A stretch of DNA of 62,366 bases from a virus, in IMG/VR virus record IMGVR_UViG_3300020583_000001, positions 1-62,366 of that record. One strand, written 5' to 3'. A model generated the notes under the pieces. That model saw only the letters and a program-made list of their open reading frames with translations. It searched no databases and was not told where the DNA came from. The translations under genes and the position numbers were made by a program. This document shows positions 35,529 through 62,366 of this stretch, piece after piece. Position 1 is the first letter of the stretch. Every line of letters begins with the position of its first letter.

Positions 35529-36662
35529 TTAGAATCCAGCTCCGTAAAAGTGCATGTTGTCTCTCGGTGAGAGGCAATAAACGTTCAGCGCGATCTTGAA
35601 GAATCCGACGACCAGATCAGCGTTGGTTTGCGACCGCACCCACGGCGTAAAGTTGAAGTTGTATTCTGGGTCGGTAGTCGGGCGTACCTTCCAGCCTTGG
35701 GAGCGAAGCACAAAGATCGGCTCGCCGGGATTGATGGTCTTGTTAGCTGGGAGATTCGAGATCGACGAGATGCCCGAGGTTGCCGAAGTGAAGGTAGCAG
35801 GCTTTACGGCGGTGGTCTGTGACAGCCCGGTCGGGAGTAGCTGGCCGTACTTCGTCGAGGGGCAGAGCTTATCCACGAAGAACATGGTGGACATAACACG
35901 GAATCCACTCATGCCCATCTTCACGTCCTGCTCCTCGCCGTAGCGCTGCTTGGGATCGAGGCGTTCGAGAGCGTAGGCGTAGGCAGCTTTGTTCATCACG
36001 CCGAAGTCAGGCGGCTGCACGCAATTGAGGATACCTTCGACCAAGGGCTTGTAGGCGAGCTGGCCCGTGTTGCCGTTCTGGTCGCCCAACCAGATGGGAA
36101 TCGAGTTGAGGGTATTGCCGACTGCTCCGTTGCGGGTCTGACCGCCATAGGTGGTGAAGATGTTACCGTCCCAGGAATTGGTCACGCCGTCGTTCATGGC
36201 TTCAGCGAAGCCGTTGATGTAGACGATACGGTTCGAGCCGGAGATGTTCTGGCCGTGATGAAAGATGTCGATACCGAGATCGGTATTCGCCGCTTGTACC
36301 GCGTTGGTCATGTAGGCGTCGATGATCTTCACTTTGCCAGCGGGGCCAGCGTTGATGACGCCGACTTGAAAGAGGTTGACGCCGATCTGCTCCAGGTATT
36401 CCTTGGGCTGGAAGGCGGTCGCGGCAAGGATCTGCACTTGGGACACGTTCACGTCGGTGCCAGGAGCGATAGCGCCGCCGTTCACGCGGTTGTACTGGAA
36501 CGGATTCTGCATGGCAGTGCCGCCCGCGTAGTCGTCGAGAGCACCGGCGAGGCGGAGCTTGCGCAAAGTTGTTGAGTCAACAAAGAAGTTATCTATCACG
36601 ACGTCGTCGCGAAGATCGGCTAGTGTAGTTGCACTTATTTGATCAAAACTCGGATCAGCCAC
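35529..36662 (-). CDS. Major capsid (coat) protein, 377 aa
   Basis: The 377-residue protein, starting at GTG 36662 after AAGGAG, follows the scaffold gene (with a homing endonuclease gene in between) and precedes decoration-like genes, the normal position of the coat gene. Its order of helix (TTLRKLRLAGALDDYAG), extended loops (GGAIAPGTDVNVSQVQILAATAF) and the final beta-rich segments is consistent with an HK97-type fold, but I cannot show this from motifs. High copy number would fit the strong ribosome site. Confidence 0.8.
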   Translation of the reverse strand: MADPSFDQISATTLADLRDDVVIDNFFVDSTTLRKLRLAGALDDYAGGTAMQNPFQYNRVNGGAIAPGTDVNVSQVQILAATAFQPKEYLEQIGVNLFQVGVINAGPAGKVKIIDAYMTNAVQAANTDLGIDIFHHGQNISGSNRIVYINGFAEAMNDGVTNSWDGNIFTTYGGQTRNGAVGNTLNSIPIWLGDQNGNTGQLAYKPLVEGILNCVQPPDFGVMNKAAYAYALERLDPKQRYGEEQDVKMGMSGFRVMSTMFFVDKLCPSTKYGQLLPTGLSQTTAVKPATFTSATSGISSISNLPANKTINPGEPIFVLRSQGWKVRPTTDPEYNFNFTPWVRSQTNADLVVGFFKIALNVYCLSPRDNMHFYGAGF

Positions 36663-39237: not shown

Positions 39238-39444
39238 TTACGTCAGCGATATCCGCGTGGATTCCTTTACCTGCACATTCGCAATCGTTCCCTGCGACAT
39301 GTTGATTAAGACTTGCCCGGTCATGTGCTCGCCGCAGAGATTGTCAATGATGCCTGCTATCGTCTCTACCGATGGACGGGAGACAGTGAAGGTGCGCTCG
39401 CGGATCAGGTGGTGATGCTCGGTGCGTTGGATGGATGTATTCAC
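39238..39444 (-). CDS. Small hypothetical protein after portal, 68 aa
   Basis: The 68-residue protein (HHHLIRERTFTVSRPSVETIAGIIDNLCGEHMTGQVLINMS) is coupled to the portal by a short overlap and is the last gene before the terminator at 39119-39147. It is likely to fold as a small alpha-beta protein. The 93 bases between its stop and the hairpin hold nothing recognisable. No family was recognised. Confidence 0.65.
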   Translation of the reverse strand: MNTSIQRTEHHHLIRERTFTVSRPSVETIAGIIDNLCGEHMTGQVLINMSQGTIANVQVKESTRISLT

Positions 39445-41510
39445 TGAATATTCTGACCCCCGCCTTCTGATTGAGTAATAGTCGAGGAGCCATCGGAACG
39501 CTGCTTTAGCGCCGGAGCCTGATTGCCGGATGGCGGCCTGCCTTCAGGCCCACTCTTGCCGGGAGCAGGCGCACCGGGCTGCGATGGCATGGCATCGATA
39601 CCGATAGCCTTCATCCGCGCCGCGAACTCTAAGTCTTCTTCCTGCTCCTCGCGCCACTTCTCCATCACGGTGCTACCTTTTATTTGACCGTAATTTGGAA
39701 TATTCCAACTCTCGGCCAGTGTCTGCGAATCTATCTTCACGCCCGCTTTTTTGAGTTGCACAAGTCCCAGCTGCATTTTTAGCTGAGTGATTTCATGCGC
39801 CGAATGCGGTGTCACCATATATTTCAGGTTGCCCGCGAACATCCGCGCCCGCTTGATCTGGTCGAAGGCGGATTTCACAGGCGCGTCGGCGGTGCCCGGA
39901 TTCTCTCCCGGCATGTGCGATGGCACAAGTCGAGAAGGATCGTAGTCGAAAGTTTCACGGGTGATATTGTCTTCGCCGATATATTGCATGACGCGGGCGG
40001 TAGGGAGATATTGCAGAATCAGATATTTCGTCTGATCCGCCATCTCACGAATGGGAGGCTCCATCGAACGGGACATGTCCTCGATGATAGGGCCTAGAGC
40101 TTCCAGTAATTTCTCCAAGTCGTCGCCTGCCATGCGGGCTTTGGCGAGTGCGAGTGCATCTTTGATCGCGTGCTGCGAGTCCATCGAAGTCTGGAGGTAT
40201 TCGAGCCACTGGAAGTCGGTGGCATCGAGTTTGATGACCTCGGGAGGGATTGGCATCTGAAATGGCTTGTCAACTTGGGAGCCGTCGTAGCCGCAGCGAG
40301 CGCGGGGCTGCATCGGGTCGAATGCTTTGGCCTCGCGGCTGGAAACGGAATTGATGTCGTAGGCCAGCGGCATGTCAAGCTGCACTCGCTTTTTGTCTGC
40401 CATGCCACGCTCTTGTTCCGTAATCGTCTGTTGGAGGTCGTAGCCATCGCGCACCATCGAGAATCCCAGAGGCTCCCACGGCCAGTGATCGGTAGAGAAC
40501 GGGATGAGGTCCGAGCGTCCATGCCAGTTGAAAGAGGGGCCGTCGTAGATGATGACGCCCTCGCTACTGATGATGAGACGGCGATAAGGATATAGCCGAG
40601 CGTCATTATCGTCGGCCTTGCGCATTCCACCATTGCCGTCGGGGATCTCCATGCCGATGAATGGAACTTCGTAGTACCACGTCGAGCCAAACTCGCCCAT
40701 TGGGATCATCTGCTGGGTGGTGTTACGGGTGAGGTCGATGATCGTGGTGTAGCGGATCGGGATCATCAGGTCGGGCATGTTACTGGGACCACTGGAGGTG
40801 GATTTGCCAAAGACGCGCTTCCAGATGTTGCCCTGCGCGGATTTGCGGATTTCGTTCGAGTACCAGTAGAGAGATGAGGTCGGCTTCAGAAGATGCTGCT
40901 TCGTGGGGAACAGCGCGTGCGCCATGAAGATCGGCATCTCGTCCAGCAGGGTCATGGCATAGGCTTTTTGAAAATTACCTGACGGAGGCAACTGAGTCGG
41001 TAACACACAGGGAGCGCCATAGCTAAGAAGCTGGATAGAACCTTCCCCGCTAACCAGATCGCGGGAGTAAATCGGACGTATCCATCCAGTGCATGTGGCT
41101 GCGGCATATTGCAATGCCTCCTTGATCGAGCGGTCAAAGTCGTTCTCCAGAAAGATGGCGCGGGTCAGGAGGTTCATTTGATTGGCCTGCGCCGCGAAGG
41201 CGGGATTGTTTGAAGAGTAGCCCCACAGTGGGCGGAGTTTAGAAAGGACGCCGACAATCTCTCTAATATTCCGCTTCAGGTGATTAGTGTTGAGTTGCGA
41301 GCGGTATTGGGGAATATCCGCCGACATGATCTTGCCGGAGATCACGTCAAGGGATTTGCGCCAGTCGGAGGTACCGCGCTGCGTCTTGAGCCATGCGGTC
41401 CCAGTCTCCTGACATTCTTGAATCCAACCGAGCTTGATGTCGTCCTTGGAGGCAGCAGGAGGGGCTTGCCACTGGCGATAGGGTACGTCGTAGCCGTCGT
41501 CACCGGGCAT
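39441..41510 (-). CDS. Portal protein, 689 aa
   Basis: The 689-residue protein follows the terminase genes and precedes the scaffold and coat genes, the position of the portal. Its pattern fits a podovirus portal: an N-terminal helical wing (DIKLGWIQECQETGTAWLKT), beta-rich stem (residues about 330-420 with WYYEVPFIGMEIPDG), a long crown helix (about 455-500) and a disordered Gln/Pro-rich C-terminus. It forms the 12-part ring through which DNA enters and leaves the capsid. The start at 41510 overlaps the preceding gene by 11 bases. Confidence 0.85.
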   Translation of the reverse strand: MPGDDGYDVPYRQWQAPPAASKDDIKLGWIQECQETGTAWLKTQRGTSDWRKSLDVISGKIMSADIPQYRSQLNTNHLKRNIREIVGVLSKLRPLWGYSSNNPAFAAQANQMNLLTRAIFLENDFDRSIKEALQYAAATCTGWIRPIYSRDLVSGEGSIQLLSYGAPCVLPTQLPPSGNFQKAYAMTLLDEMPIFMAHALFPTKQHLLKPTSSLYWYSNEIRKSAQGNIWKRVFGKSTSSGPSNMPDLMIPIRYTTIIDLTRNTTQQMIPMGEFGSTWYYEVPFIGMEIPDGNGGMRKADDNDARLYPYRRLIISSEGVIIYDGPSFNWHGRSDLIPFSTDHWPWEPLGFSMVRDGYDLQQTITEQERGMADKKRVQLDMPLAYDINSVSSREAKAFDPMQPRARCGYDGSQVDKPFQMPIPPEVIKLDATDFQWLEYLQTSMDSQHAIKDALALAKARMAGDDLEKLLEALGPIIEDMSRSMEPPIREMADQTKYLILQYLPTARVMQYIGEDNITRETFDYDPSRLVPSHMPGENPGTADAPVKSAFDQIKRARMFAGNLKYMVTPHSAHEITQLKMQLGLVQLKKAGVKIDSQTLAESWNIPNYGQIKGSTVMEKWREEQEEDLEFAARMKAIGIDAMPSQPGAPAPGKSGPEGRPPSGNQAPALKQRSDGSSTITQSEGGGQNIQ

Positions 41511-41730: not shown

Positions 41731-42152
41731 AAAGATTCACCGAGAGTTTCTTCCACGTTGCGGGCACGATCATTCTCTCTTAATTCGAGGTAAGCCCGGT
41801 CACAGATGAACCGCGAGCGATATTTGGCACGCTTCTCCTCTTTCAACTGGATATAGGCGCGGATGAACTCGCGCTCGTACTCGGAGGTGCAGGATGATCG
41901 CAGGGTGGCGTGGAGAGAGTCGATCACCCACTTGCGTGATGCCGCCCAGGTTTGTTCGTCGTGCTCCCACTCCGCGTGCTGGCGCTCGTAGGTCTGCTGC
42001 TGCAATCGCTTCTGTAAGGCGTCCACTTCGGCGAGAGTATTCGCTTCGCGGCGGTCATAGCCAGCGGGACAGAAGGTGAAGTAGCATTCGTCGTTCGGAG
42101 GGATTTGGATGTCACCTTGCGCGTTCTCGAAGAAGTAGAGCTTTATCGCCAT
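41727..42152 (-). CDS. Helical hypothetical protein, 141 aa
   Basis: The 141-residue protein starts with a small strand region (AIKLYFFENAQGDIQIPP, a C-x-x-x-C pair at FTFCPAGY) and then a long charged helix rich in Arg, Glu and Gln (residues 40-135, RLQQQTYERQHAEWEHDEQTW), likely a coiled coil. It follows the terminase. A packaging or portal accessory is possible but unproven. Confidence 0.7.
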   Translation of the reverse strand: MAIKLYFFENAQGDIQIPPNDECYFTFCPAGYDRREANTLAEVDALQKRLQQQTYERQHAEWEHDEQTWAASRKWVIDSLHATLRSSCTSEYEREFIRAYIQLKEEKRAKYRSRFICDRAYLELRENDRARNVEETLGESL

Positions 42153-44383
42153 CGGTCCAGCTCGGCTGTGGATGAGTAAATGATATCGCTCATAGATATA
42201 GCACGATTCCCGTCACGCTTGGTAGAGAAAACATTCCCGGCGTACTTTTCAACGTTGATCGGCGGCAGGGCTTGCTGGTCGGCGGCACCGAATCGCTTCT
42301 TCGAGCGTTCGGTCATCGACTTGAGATCGTTGACAATGATTTCTGAGATCGCCGCCGCGAATAAGCCGTCGTCGTGCTCGCCTTCCTCGTGCTCCTTCTT
42401 TTCCTTGCCGGAAGCAGTGTAGTGAACCTCGAAGTGTTTGCACTCGTCGATCAGCCACGGGGAGTTGATAACGTACCATCCGTTCTGGACGGAGTGAACA
42501 AAGGAATCGACGAGTATGGGACGCGACCAGACGTTGGTATACCAGCCGATCTTCTTCGACTTCTGCTTCTTAAGATCTTTTCCGTCGTAGCGGATGAAGG
42601 AGGGGAAGCGGGTGTATCCCATCTTGCGCATCTGCACCTGGGCCACGTCTCCCACCGAGGCGATTTGCTCGACGCCGACGATGGGATTGCGGTGCGGAGT
42701 CGAGTCTTCCATGTAGCGGGAGTAGTAGGCGGCAATGCACATGATGAAGGCGTAAGCTTCTACGTGGGATACATAAGCTGATCGAAACTCGGCAACCTGG
42801 ATATCCGGTTGACCACGGCGGGATGCCGGTGCGGTGACACAGATAACGGTGGAATCTTCTCCCATACCGTTAGAAGTATCGACCCCAATACTGTAGTCGA
42901 TCCCCGGAGCCGGAGGGCAGAACACCATGAGCTTGCCATTCGCATACTCGCGGAATGCATCAGGTTTAGTCTTGAGCGAATTAACATACTGCATGTCGTG
43001 ATGCAGAGGGATGAGTTCCCATCGGTAACTGTCACCTCGATTGGAATTGAAGGTGACGATTTCGCGTTGCCGTGGCTTATCAGAAGTTCCATAGTCGATG
43101 TCCTCCGTTGGCGGCTCATGGTGGTCCTCGATGGACTGGCCGGAGATGCCGAACGCCTGGAATGTCTGCTGGGCTGCGTTCTCGACCTCAACCATCACGT
43201 CATGGCCGAACACCGATTCCTGCGACCGCTGCAAGGCTTCGATGTCATCCCCGGCCATCTCCTGAAACCAGATCCCTTCCATGCCCTTGGCTTTGTGTTC
43301 TTCGTGGCCGACCTCCCAGAACCATTGCTGTTCAAGAGGCATCGTCCATCGCGGGCCTAACTGTTTCGACAGGAGTGGAGTGTTGGCGATGTAGGCTTCG
43401 ACGCGGGCGACGTGCTCTTGCGTATCGGGGAGGCGGTGCTCGTAGAACGCTTCCGGGACGGGCCGCATTTTTAGCCACGCGGGCTTCGGGTAGAGGTCGC
43501 GCCCGATGACCCAGGGGAAGAAGATCGGGCAGAGGCGGCAGGTGCGCGAGGCCCAGTTGGCTTTCGAGTAGTGCCAGGTTTCTGCCCACCAGCCTTCATC
43601 TCCCTCGCCAGTTGATTCCAGGATTCCAAAGATGCTTGGAGATGCGTGTACAGCCTTAAACAGTGAAGCCTCGATTTGTTCCTTTGCGTTTGTAAACGAG
43701 GCGCATTCAGAAAGGTGATAGAGGGTGGGCGTAGAGCCTCGTGCAATTCCAGACATCTGGTTGCCATGCTGCACATACACTCCACTGTTAAGTTGTCCAA
43801 ACGTGAGTTCTCCATTTTCCGTCTCCACACGCGAGGTGTACTGAGGCCGCAACCATATCGGAAGCATGTCGTAGCCCATCAGTAATTTCTTACCCATCAT
43901 CTTCGACTTCTGCCGATCCGCCGAGGCGATGATGGCGTTGACGCCGTTTGAGAAAATGATGCGGAACATTATCAGGAGTTCGACCAACGTGGTCATTCCC
44001 AATTGTCTTGCTTTCAAAATTTGGATTTCGATTGCAGCGTCTAAATTCTCTAGATCAGAGATCACGTTAAAGAGAATTAGTTGCGCGAGGCGAAAGGTAA
44101 ACCTACGAATCACGCCCTCTTCATCAGTAACGTATCCGTATCGTGTAACGGCATAAGCGTGGTCCGACATCACGAGGAGTTGTTCGTTGAGCATCCACTG
44201 CGCTTCTTCGGCAGTAAGATTCTGTGTGGCAATAGGAAGGCCAGTTTGGCCATAGATATACTTTCCGCCTTTACGCAGACGTTCCTCGAAATCATCAACC
44301 TCCCAGACTTCGTGGTGAGTCAGGCGAATGGGATTACCGAGATCGCGCTGGTAAGATTCAGCGAGTGCTATTCGTCGCTCCAC
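42143..44383 (-). CDS. terL: Terminase large subunit (TerL), 746 aa
   Basis: The 746-residue protein has the ATPase and nuclease motifs of the large terminase. The Walker A-type KARQLGMTT lies at residues 124-132 and the Walker B-type LYHLSE at 221-226. The nuclease domain starts at IDYSIGVD (Asp502) with a second acidic GED at 509-510, and continues with GVEQ (Glu572) and the metal-binding HDDG at 670-673. It cuts and pumps phage DNA into the prohead. The start at GTG 44383 overlaps the small subunit stop. No deletion is apparent. Confidence 0.93.
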   Translation of the reverse strand: MERRIALAESYQRDLGNPIRLTHHEVWEVDDFEERLRKGGKYIYGQTGLPIATQNLTAEEAQWMLNEQLLVMSDHAYAVTRYGYVTDEEGVIRRFTFRLAQLILFNVISDLENLDAAIEIQILKARQLGMTTLVELLIMFRIIFSNGVNAIIASADRQKSKMMGKKLLMGYDMLPIWLRPQYTSRVETENGELTFGQLNSGVYVQHGNQMSGIARGSTPTLYHLSECASFTNAKEQIEASLFKAVHASPSIFGILESTGEGDEGWWAETWHYSKANWASRTCRLCPIFFPWVIGRDLYPKPAWLKMRPVPEAFYEHRLPDTQEHVARVEAYIANTPLLSKQLGPRWTMPLEQQWFWEVGHEEHKAKGMEGIWFQEMAGDDIEALQRSQESVFGHDVMVEVENAAQQTFQAFGISGQSIEDHHEPPTEDIDYGTSDKPRQREIVTFNSNRGDSYRWELIPLHHDMQYVNSLKTKPDAFREYANGKLMVFCPPAPGIDYSIGVDTSNGMGEDSTVICVTAPASRRGQPDIQVAEFRSAYVSHVEAYAFIMCIAAYYSRYMEDSTPHRNPIVGVEQIASVGDVAQVQMRKMGYTRFPSFIRYDGKDLKKQKSKKIGWYTNVWSRPILVDSFVHSVQNGWYVINSPWLIDECKHFEVHYTASGKEKKEHEEGEHDDGLFAAAISEIIVNDLKSMTERSKKRFGAADQQALPPINVEKYAGNVFSTKRDGNRAISMSDIIYSSTAELDRWR

Positions 44384-46893: not shown

Positions 46894-47417
46894 TCATCCT
46901 CATCGAACTTCGGCGGCGGGGGCATACCACTCGGCTTGGTCATCACGTTATCGAACTTAATAGACGACTTCAATATTTCAAGATCCTTGGCGGTGAACTT
47001 GGGGCTGAATAGTTCATGTATGAGATTGACCGACTCCGGCCCCAGCTTCCTTGCCGACCTCTCCAGCCGATTCCGCAACGCCTTCCTCGCCCGCTCCTGC
47101 TGCCGCTGCGTCACCCGCGCTCGAATCTTCGCCTGCGCCGCCTTGATATCCTTCTGCGAGGTGAATCGCTTGAAGGGAACGTTCCAGTAGGCGGAGAGGC
47201 AGAAGGGGCAGCATTTTGGCGTGCGGCCCTTGCGTGGGAACCATTCGTGAGCGCAGCGCAGGCATCGCAATTCGCCAACTCGTTCACCGCTCGGTTGGCC
47301 CCCGGTTACAGCAGGTTGGGCGTCGGGCCGTATGTCCCGTCCATTGGGCATCACCTCCTCGGACTTGTCGGAGAGGATCAGCTCCGACTGATCGACGGCG
47401 TTGGCACTTGGTCGCAC
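46890..47417 (-). CDS. Zinc-ribbon protein, 175 aa
   Basis: The GTG start at 47417 overlaps the preceding stop (TAGTG). In the 175-residue product a zinc ribbon occupies about residues 53-75 (CLRCAHEWFPRKG, then CCPFC), followed by a long basic helical stretch (ARVTQRQQERARKALRNRLERS). It may bind DNA or RNA. It is in the early part of the leftward arm and no family is recognised. Confidence 0.65.
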   Translation of the reverse strand: MRPSANAVDQSELILSDKSEEVMPNGRDIRPDAQPAVTGGQPSGERVGELRCLRCAHEWFPRKGRTPKCCPFCLSAYWNVPFKRFTSQKDIKAAQAKIRARVTQRQQERARKALRNRLERSARKLGPESVNLIHELFSPKFTAKDLEILKSSIKFDNVMTKPSGMPPPPKFDEDE

Positions 47418-47686
47418 TAATTGGCTCGCTCCACATCCGGTTTCTTCAGCACCAGGATATTCGCCATCGCCGTCCCCGGCGCGAACTGGACCGGGATAGT
47501 CGCGGTGATCGTGATTGTCCCATTCAGCGACAGGGGATGGTCATCCGGTCCCATCAGCGTCCCGGCGGGATGCACGTCGGCGACCGTGAAGATGAGCGCA
47601 GCCTCGGAGAGGGCCACCCGAACGAGGTCATCCTTACGGATGGTGTTCCCAATGGCATCAATAGGATAGGATTTGTCGCCGGTCAT
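47417..47686 (-). CDS. Small beta-rich hypothetical protein, 89 aa
   Basis: The 89-residue product begins YPIDAIGNTIRKDDLVRVAL and is mostly strands (TIT-ITATIPVQFAPG). Its first residues look like a beta-barrel opening, as in small capsid-associated or regulatory phage proteins. It overlaps the Acb2-like gene by 4 bases (ATGA), so both are expressed together. No function known. Confidence 0.65.
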   Translation of the reverse strand: MTGDKSYPIDAIGNTIRKDDLVRVALSEAALIFTVADVHPAGTLMGPDDHPLSLNGTITITATIPVQFAPGTAMANILVLKKPDVERAN

Positions 47687-47904
47687 TGGACCTCTAACTG
47701 ATTCTCAGGAACATTGGCGATTGACTTCTTGGCGAAGAAGCTGGCTTCCTCTAATTTGGTCTTAACAATGGAGAACTCACGCCCATCGGGACATACCTGA
47801 CTGAGTTCCTTGAGCAGTTGGTCGAAGTCTCTGGCTATCTTTACAGCCAACTCAATCCCCTGAGCGTTGAGCTTGTGGAATGGAAACAAAGGACTTACTG
47901 GCAT
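47683..47904 (-). CDS. Acb2/Tad1-hairpin-like protein, putative cyclic-nucleotide sponge, 73 aa
   Basis: The 73-residue product, first gene of the leftward operon (ATG 47904 after GGGAGGG), resembles the Acb2/Tad1-hairpin family. Its conserved C-terminal helix reads DGREFSIVKTKLEEASFF, then AKKSIANVPENQ, against the family's GREx-S-x-x-x-T-K-L-E-E-A. Its N-terminal half is a helix (IELAVKIARDFDQLLKEL) as expected for the hairpin. Family members form oligomers that bind cyclic di- and trinucleotides and so block CBASS and, in some, Thoeris defence. It sits directly under the strong leftward promoter, as an early anti-defence protein would. A structure or binding test would be decisive. Confidence 0.7.
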   Translation of the reverse strand: MPVSPLFPFHKLNAQGIELAVKIARDFDQLLKELSQVCPDGREFSIVKTKLEEASFFAKKSIANVPENQLEVQ

Positions 47905-47929
47905 GTTCCATACCCTCCCTAATCCACCT

Positions 47930-47958
47930 ACTATAACCCATACTCGTGAGGATGTCAA
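47930..47958 (-). promoter_or_regulatory. Leftward sigma70-type promoter (main leftward arm)
   Basis: On the minus strand TTGACA (plus 47953-47958) lies 17 bp from TATAGT (plus 47930-47935): two near-consensus boxes at ideal spacing. Transcription should begin near 47923 and give a short leader with GGGAGGG before the ATG at 47904. Confidence 0.85.
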
Positions 47959-48310
47959 CTATTATTTTGCGATGGTGGTTATTTTTTATTTTTGTAAATT
48001 ATTGAGCGGGAAGGAGATGGAGCACGTCTCCGTCGCCCCTCCCCCTCTAGTCTGGACAACTCGCACTGGACCGCCACGGTCGGCAATCGTACCGGCATGA
48101 CGGTAACCGGTTCGATGGTCCCAGGGGGTGCGACCAAGGTATCGTCATCGTCCGTCGCTATCGACCGACCGTGAGCTGGCGTCTCATAATGGGACAAGGG
48201 GCCGGGGTAATCTGATGGGACTGAGACACACGTTTAGGGCCATCTTTCGTTATCCGGTTACTATAGTTGGCATGATACGTGCTAAGAGAAGTCACATCCC
48301 CACGCCATCA

Positions 48311-48341
48311 CCAGCTAATCCATCGGCTATCCATTAGCTGG
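48311..48341. repeat. Inverted repeat CCAGCTAAT / ATTAGCTGG
   Basis: Perfect 9-base arms around a 13-base loop, plus a third copy of ATTAGCTGG at 48366-48374. A likely protein-binding palindrome in the divergent control region. Confidence 0.7.
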
Positions 48342-48406
48342 ACGGTAACTAATAGCCGTATACGCATTAGCTGGCGCGTCAGGATTGGGATGCCAAACTA
48401 GGTGAG

Positions 48407-48430
48407 ATCATCATAATAATCATCATAATA
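48407..48430. repeat. Two tandem 12-bp repeats (ATCATCATAATA)
   Basis: Exact tandem copies at 48407-48418 and 48419-48430 in an AT-rich stretch just before the rightward promoter at 48458. They may be operator or DNA-unwinding sequence. Confidence 0.7.
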
Positions 48431-48485: not shown

Positions 48486-48491
48486 ATGCAT

Positions 48492-48680
48492 ATGGATGTA
48501 CAAACAAAGAAACGCAAGATGACGATAGCACATGTGGCAATGTCGAATGGGGAGCTGGACGCGATTGACCAGATAGCTAGGGAAGAGAATCGCAGCCGCG
48601 CCAATACGATCCATACGTTGCTTCGTGAGGCTATCGAGTCGCGTCAGGGGCAGCGGGAAGAAAAGGAGCAATCACGGTGA
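48492..48680 (+). CDS. Ribbon-helix-helix (CopG/Arc-type) regulator, 62 aa
   Basis: The ATG at 48492 coincides with the predicted transcription start and gives a 62-residue product (an ATG 6 bases earlier is in frame). Its first 20 residues form a basic strand (VQTKKRKMTIAHVAM), followed by helices (GELDAIDQIAREENRSRANTIH and LLREAIESRQ), the ribbon-helix-helix layout of CopG/Arc repressors. It probably binds operator DNA, and the palindromes just upstream are the natural targets. As the first gene of the early arm it may regulate its own promoter and perhaps the divergent leftward one. No strong ribosome site precedes it. Confidence 0.75.
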   Translation: MDVQTKKRKMTIAHVAMSNGELDAIDQIAREENRSRANTIHTLLREAIESRQGQREEKEQSR

Positions 48681-62210: not shown

Positions 62211-62366
62211 GACTAATACCCGTGAGCGGATCGCCCTCTCGCCGGGTTCCTATGGGACGGGTAAAGAACCCGGCCTAAAGATTGTTTCCTACTCCGAAAA
62301 GGGCTCTAAACTCGATAAGTCGGGAGCCATGCGCCACTCGTTTATGGTGGCAGCTACAAGGCCCAG
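62188..62366 (+). CDS. Possible ssDNA-binding/recombination accessory protein (N-terminal part; continues at base 3)
   Basis: The ATG at 62188, after AAAGGAG, begins the 235-residue gene whose C-terminal part is at 3-656. The frame is open through the junction: base 62242 corresponds to base 3, with reading continuous. The N-terminus reads MSFLQQVETNTRERIALS. It overlaps the MazG-like gene by 23 bases. See the entry at 3-656 for the role. Confidence 0.8.
   Translation, partial: MSFLQQVETNTRERIALSPGSYGTGKEPGLKIVSYSEKGSKLDKSGAMRHSFMVAATRP
62240..62366. repeat. Terminal direct repeat, right copy (circular overlap)
   Basis: Identical to bases 1-127. Removing one copy gives a 62,239-bp circle. 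Confidence 0.93.

Follow-up and report, generated by a model that had tools for sequence, protein, structure and literature searches.

Does the short gene at the head of the leftward arm of this virus genome encode a sponge for nucleotide immune signals, as an initial annotation had proposed, and which signal would such a sponge hold? The window (the whole stretch of DNA that we analysed) is a virus record of 62,366 bases, which is probably a complete genome of ~62.2 kb because it carries an exact 127-base direct terminal repeat at 1-127 and 62240-62366. The gene lies where it had been placed and is read on the minus strand, from 47904 down to 47683, giving a product of 73 residues, MPVSPLFPFHKLNAQGIELAVKIARDFDQLLKELSQVCPDGREFSIVKTKLEEASFFAKKSIANVPENQLEVQ, in which the motif quoted as its signature, GREFSIVKTKLEEA, occupies residues 41-54. 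The gene and the elements bearing on its translation are the following:

47683-47904, minus strand: sponge gene, encoding a predicted Acb2/Tad1 hairpin-domain protein close to Acb2 homolog 43 (from Pfam, PHROG, PDB 9PTQ and purifying selection)
47914-47920, minus strand: ribosome-binding site AGGGAGG, 9 nt ahead of the ATG (direct reading)
47417-47686, minus strand: 89-aa open reading frame, overlapping the sponge stop codon at an ATGA (ORF list and sequence)

We take this to be a real gene because its relatives are 46-70% identical and silent sites are saturated while replacements stay few (pS 0.82-1.04 and pN 0.24-0.37 for the window protein against its relatives; pS 0.74-1.04 and pN 0.12-0.37 across all tested pairs). 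Judged by this codon comparison, the sponge gene is under strong purifying selection. The plus strand across 47683-47904 is interrupted by stops, and a chance motif was ruled out by the Pfam score together with the codon evidence. An alternative start offered by the ORF caller, TTG 47958 (91 residues), falls within the -35 box of the promoter-like site described below and was set aside; the 73-residue start was preferred because it has a ribosome-binding site and a length that agrees with the relatives. The 89-aa frame is likely the next gene and co-translated with the sponge gene, and its product matched nothing in Pfam or PHROG.

Profile searches of the kind that the initial annotation had suggested returned a family match. 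By hmmscan, the 73-aa protein matched Pfam PF24729 (Acb2/Tad1 hairpin) at 42.2 bits (cut-off 27, E 9e-11), a cut-off also passed by four relatives (L002, L005, L009 and L017), and it matched PHROG 1454, whose function is unannotated, at E 6e-12. NCBIfam contained no matching model for the protein, and a hit to PF15300 (E 0.013) was discounted as under its cut-off. The matched region is:

47716-47880, minus strand: Acb2/Tad1 hairpin domain, residues 9-63 (hmmscan range, six-frame profile match and AlphaFold helices)

Among PDB sequences, phmmer found 9PTQ (E 1.8e-8), and a search with the family profile gave the same entry at E 1.2e-14; T4 Vs.4 scored much worse in that search (E 0.1). According to its title, 9PTQ (six chains, released 2025-09-17) is Acb2 homolog 43 in complex with 3'cADPR; from the passages citing it in PMC13232231 and PMC13148439, Hadary et al. 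2025 appears to be the key paper behind this homologue. AlphaFold modelled the 73-aa protein as a helical hairpin (helices 14-37 and 42-63, mean pLDDT 88), with the two long antiparallel helices that characterise members of the family. Foldseek ranked 9PTQ first (TM 0.82/0.86, probability 1.00, 38% identity), and VIA-align gave it Z 9.0 over 67 residues, against 6.8 for T4 Vs.4 with cGAMP, 6.2-6.3 for P. aeruginosa phage Acb2 and ~5 for Tad1 (CmTad1 5.0). Fold matching of two-helix hairpins is weak evidence in general, and unrelated helical pairs scored up to Z 6.6 in the same list. Because such pairs also reach Z ~6, only 9PTQ stands out by fold alone, and the links to T4 and Tad1 rest on the Pfam family. 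9PTQ is the closest entry in both sequence and fold, and has the same FxxHxxNxxG start. On sequence and model, the 73-aa protein belongs to the Acb2/Tad1 hairpin superfamily and, within it, to the short type represented by Acb2 homolog 43, and the earlier family call is borne out.

The initial annotation had further described the protein as a signal sponge with emphasis on CBASS. Members of Acb2 and Tad1 vary in ligand range, some binding both kinds of ligand, and sponge families switch ligand from one homologue to another (PMC12043709). Jenson et al. described T4 Vs.4 as a hexamer with three cGAMP molecules, which T4 Acb2 binds with a Kd of ~30 nM; Y8 and F82 stack on the ligand, Y8, H11, K23 and R79 bond to it, and L29, A66, A73 and A77 lie at subunit interfaces (PMC10097602). 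Binding by T4 Acb2 is lowered by T68M (PMC12657230). If the window protein were strictly a CBASS sponge, it would hold cyclic dinucleotides, such as 3'3'-cGAMP, in this T4 pocket, and its PF24729 membership, the T4 precedent and the retained hexamer-face residues speak for that reading. With the second helix counted ungapped from the TKL block, T4 A73, A77, S74 and T68 correspond to A54, A58, S55 and T49 of the window protein and R79 to K60, all five invariant among the aligned relatives, and the interface residue A66 corresponds to V47; the TKLEEASFFAKK block is invariant in 15/15 aligned sequences. The pocket itself argues the other way. The base-stacking aromatic F82 is absent, its position being A63 in the window protein and in all relatives, and the N-terminal lysine (K23/K26) falls on G16 if the alignment is anchored on the Asn; gap placement is uncertain here, and T4 K23 is probably replaced by G16. 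The window protein also lacks two features of T4 Acb2, its long inter-helix segment and its longer N-terminal helix, and the nearest solved relative holds 3'cADPR, a Thoeris signal. The family part of the earlier description therefore stands, its CBASS emphasis is not established, and we consider a strict CBASS sponge unlikely.

At the N-terminus, where the T4 Vs.4 / PaMx33 cGAMP sponges carry a Tyr (Y8/Y11), F7-P-F-H10 resembles Y8-K-P-H11 of T4, with a shorter helix following it in the window protein, and the pattern F7-x-x-H10-x-x-N13-x-x-G16 is common to the window protein and 9PTQ, as is the K60 position. Because these residues are shared with 9PTQ while F82 and probably K23 are lost, the overall pattern is closer to that of the relative solved with 3'cADPR than to those of the relatives solved with cGAMP. 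A further residue, R42, is invariant among the aligned relatives and missing from T4 Acb2, and aligns with R67 of P. aeruginosa phage Acb2, which we take to be part of the cyclic-trinucleotide pocket; if that is so, such a pocket could also be present in the window protein. This would agree with a sponge mainly for cyclic trinucleotides (cA3, cAAG), held at the three-fold axis of the hexamer in the second Acb2/Tad1 pocket and blocking NucC-type CBASS or cA3 signalling. Acb2 has a separate site for trinucleotides and binds them with higher affinity than dinucleotides (PMC12043709). However, R42 may be structural, and a trinucleotide site would not exclude a cADPR pocket, as CbTad1 holds both cADPR and cA3 (title of PDB 8KBF); we regard a mainly trinucleotide-binding role as possible yet somewhat unlikely. 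Provided that the protein is a sponge, and with overlapping ligand ranges allowed, these comparisons give the cADPR class about an even chance, make a cyclic trinucleotide a minority prospect and leave a cyclic dinucleotide slimmer chances. We would also rate as doubtful the proposal that the group sharing FxxHxLNxxG, GR and TKLEEASFFAKK is a distinct environmental clade with a remodelled pocket and a signal new to the superfamily.

Relatives are encoded at 20 environmental phage loci, and the 14 that were aligned are ~46-69% identical to the window protein. Direct searches of 50,697 phage records gave no nucleotide or protein match at E 1e-5. Relaxing the limit to E 10 brought in 211 of these records. 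Mycobacteriophages reached E 2e-5, with alignments covering part of the query, and Microbacterium phages came in at about E 1e-3; many weaker rows were doubtful, such as those to tail-fibre and phosphomannomutase genes. Mycobacteriophage relatives have already been annotated as cyclic nucleotide sequestering proteins (PMC11953737). A search of 84,980 bacterial and archaeal genomes, dependent on short peptide patterns, and one of plasmids turned up no relatives, and host assignment through these sets linked no host, Thoeris or CBASS locus to the phage. Between phage contigs the sponge is ~50-70% identical (65-70% for the window against L021-L023), whereas the terminase, portal-position and capsid-position proteins of the same contigs are ~26-32% identical or undetectable. 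Because sponge identity is so far above core-protein identity, the pattern is consistent with a small anti-defence gene passed among phages that have little else in common.

Separately, we observed a natural fusion of 246 aa in which an MGYTTEFEG-type domain (PHROG 38666, no Pfam model) is joined to the sponge hairpin:

L009:4473-5210 (the same as L028:9473-10210): fusion gene, on contig IMGVR_UViG_3300049472_000168

None of the 11 relatives found for the N-terminal domain carried a hairpin (0/11), and the fusion occurred in one contig only.

The window gene shares its arm with the terminase, and its wider surroundings include the following:

42143-44383, minus strand: terminase large subunit, same leftward arm as the sponge gene (PHROG 2, E 2e-10)
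39441-41510: portal candidate (from gene order and weak similarity to L023 alone)
35529-36662: capsid candidate (from gene order and weak similarity to L023 alone)
48486-48680, rightward arm: candidate Arc-like (RHH) repressor (Pfam/PHROG)

The rightward arm also encodes a LuxR-type HTH protein, RusA, a PD-(D/E)XK nuclease and Dam. Elsewhere, relatives are located within operons: in L023 and L032 (at about 10000) the relative comes immediately after the terminase, and in Microbacterium phage Quhwah (gp29, L041:1968-2210) it is flanked by the portal and major head genes. Such positions, like that of the window gene in a terminase-containing arm, would suit a hairpin protein that no longer binds ligand and has another role, for example as a small structural or regulatory protein of the packaging operon. 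Other relatives, however, lie beside RecA (L024), an RNA ligase (L029), a ClpB-like ATPase (L038) or an ssDNA-binding protein (L035), and because the neighbours differ from locus to locus there is no fixed partner gene. Conservation far above that of core genes and the invariant F/H/K/R/T set also suggest a ligand site, and we find a non-binding role improbable. A metallophosphoesterase, considered as a recurring neighbour (L024, L028), was dismissed, the two proteins being mutually unrelated and one of them SbcD-like. A systematic count of sponge relatives co-expressed with structural genes would be worthwhile.

The sponge gene is the first leftward from a 580-bp gap that separates the divergent arms, and the initial annotation had described it as following the strongest promoter. 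Upstream of the gene lie:

47930-47958, minus strand: promoter-like site TTGACA-17 nt-TATAGT, 11/12 sigma-70 (consensus match alone)
47959-48010, minus strand: A/T-rich stretch upstream of the -35 box, a possible UP element (direct reading)

The ATG begins 25 nt past this site, which is the sole 11/12 match in the window on both strands, in agreement with the earlier description. Because ~0.3 such matches are expected in Markov-shuffled sequence, the match by itself is suggestive and no proof of a promoter, and a comparable promoter directly upstream is absent in most relatives, as judged by eye. The gene had also been expected to be made first and in quantity. Its first position behind the best promoter match agrees with this. 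However, the arm headed by this promoter is the one that carries the terminase, so that early and abundant synthesis of the sponge is plausible but no more than inferred. In the divergent intergenic region, inverted and direct copies of CCAGCTAAT / ATTAGCTGG lie at 48311-48374 and are a possible operator for the Arc-like protein encoded at 48486-48680, and just upstream of the rightward arm two copies of ATCATCATAATA stand in perfect tandem at 48407-48430.

Taken together, family membership, conserved residues and modelled fold make it probable that the 73-aa protein is a phage anti-defence sponge for some nucleotide immune signal, and our analysis favours a hexameric sponge whose signal would most likely belong to the cADPR class. 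Six copies would assemble through the conserved alanine faces (A54, A58), and the signal would be trapped tightly, and left uncut, in inter-subunit pockets whose walls include the N-terminal F7/H10 motif and K60. Host effectors would then stay off, and the infected cell could survive long enough for phage production. The likeliest ligand would be 3'cADPR or an isomeric cyclic ADP-ribose produced by the TIR protein of a Thoeris system, with CBASS cyclic di- or trinucleotides as the next choices. A strong promoter and first position would provide the high copy number that suits the protein, because a stoichiometric sponge needs it. Against this explanation, 9PTQ is ~40% identical to the window protein, and ligand changes between homologues.

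These results show that predicted hairpin sponges near the 3'cADPR-bound Acb2 homolog 43 occur in many phages that have not been cultivated, whose annotation would either overlook them or call them 'anti-CBASS'; an Acb2 label should not count as evidence for a CBASS target. F7, H10, N13, G16, R42, T49 and K60 form a short candidate list for signal choice.

Among known systems, Tad1 (CbTad1, CmTad1; 7UAV, 8KBD, 8KBF) has a C-terminal hairpin that is the same Pfam domain, but its N-terminal beta domain is wholly missing from the hairpin-only window protein. P. aeruginosa phage Acb2 (p26; 8H2J, 8H2X, 8IXZ) shares the hairpin fold, the GR motif (R67, window R42) and KT, and differs in being longer, in its low identity (12/66 aligned residues) and in its N-terminal K26, probably lost in the window protein. 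Acb2/Vs.4 of T4 (PDB 7UQ2) belongs to the same Pfam family and has the same second-helix interface alanines, Ser and Thr; unlike the window protein, it has 88 aa, a longer N-terminal helix, an inter-helix segment 12-13 residues longer, and the cGAMP-pocket residues F82 and, probably among those not kept, K23. StellaBean gp101 of mycobacteriophage cluster E has the same short architecture (PF24729 at 59 bits, 26/64 identical) but Ala at K60; together with Xandras gp101 and Statler gp57 (mycobacteriophage cluster E, Microbacterium EG) it is 'cyclic nucleotide sequestering' by annotation. Closest is Acb2 homolog 43 (9PTQ), with 76 aa against 73, 25/63 aligned residues identical, a TM-score of 0.82-0.86, the FxxHxxNxxG start and a GRE...KTKLEEA.FFA core, differing in Met at window S55, Thr at window K59 and its C-terminal tail. 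The family, its fold and the sponge mechanism had been described before, as had a member bound to 3'cADPR, and the window protein is a new member of this family.
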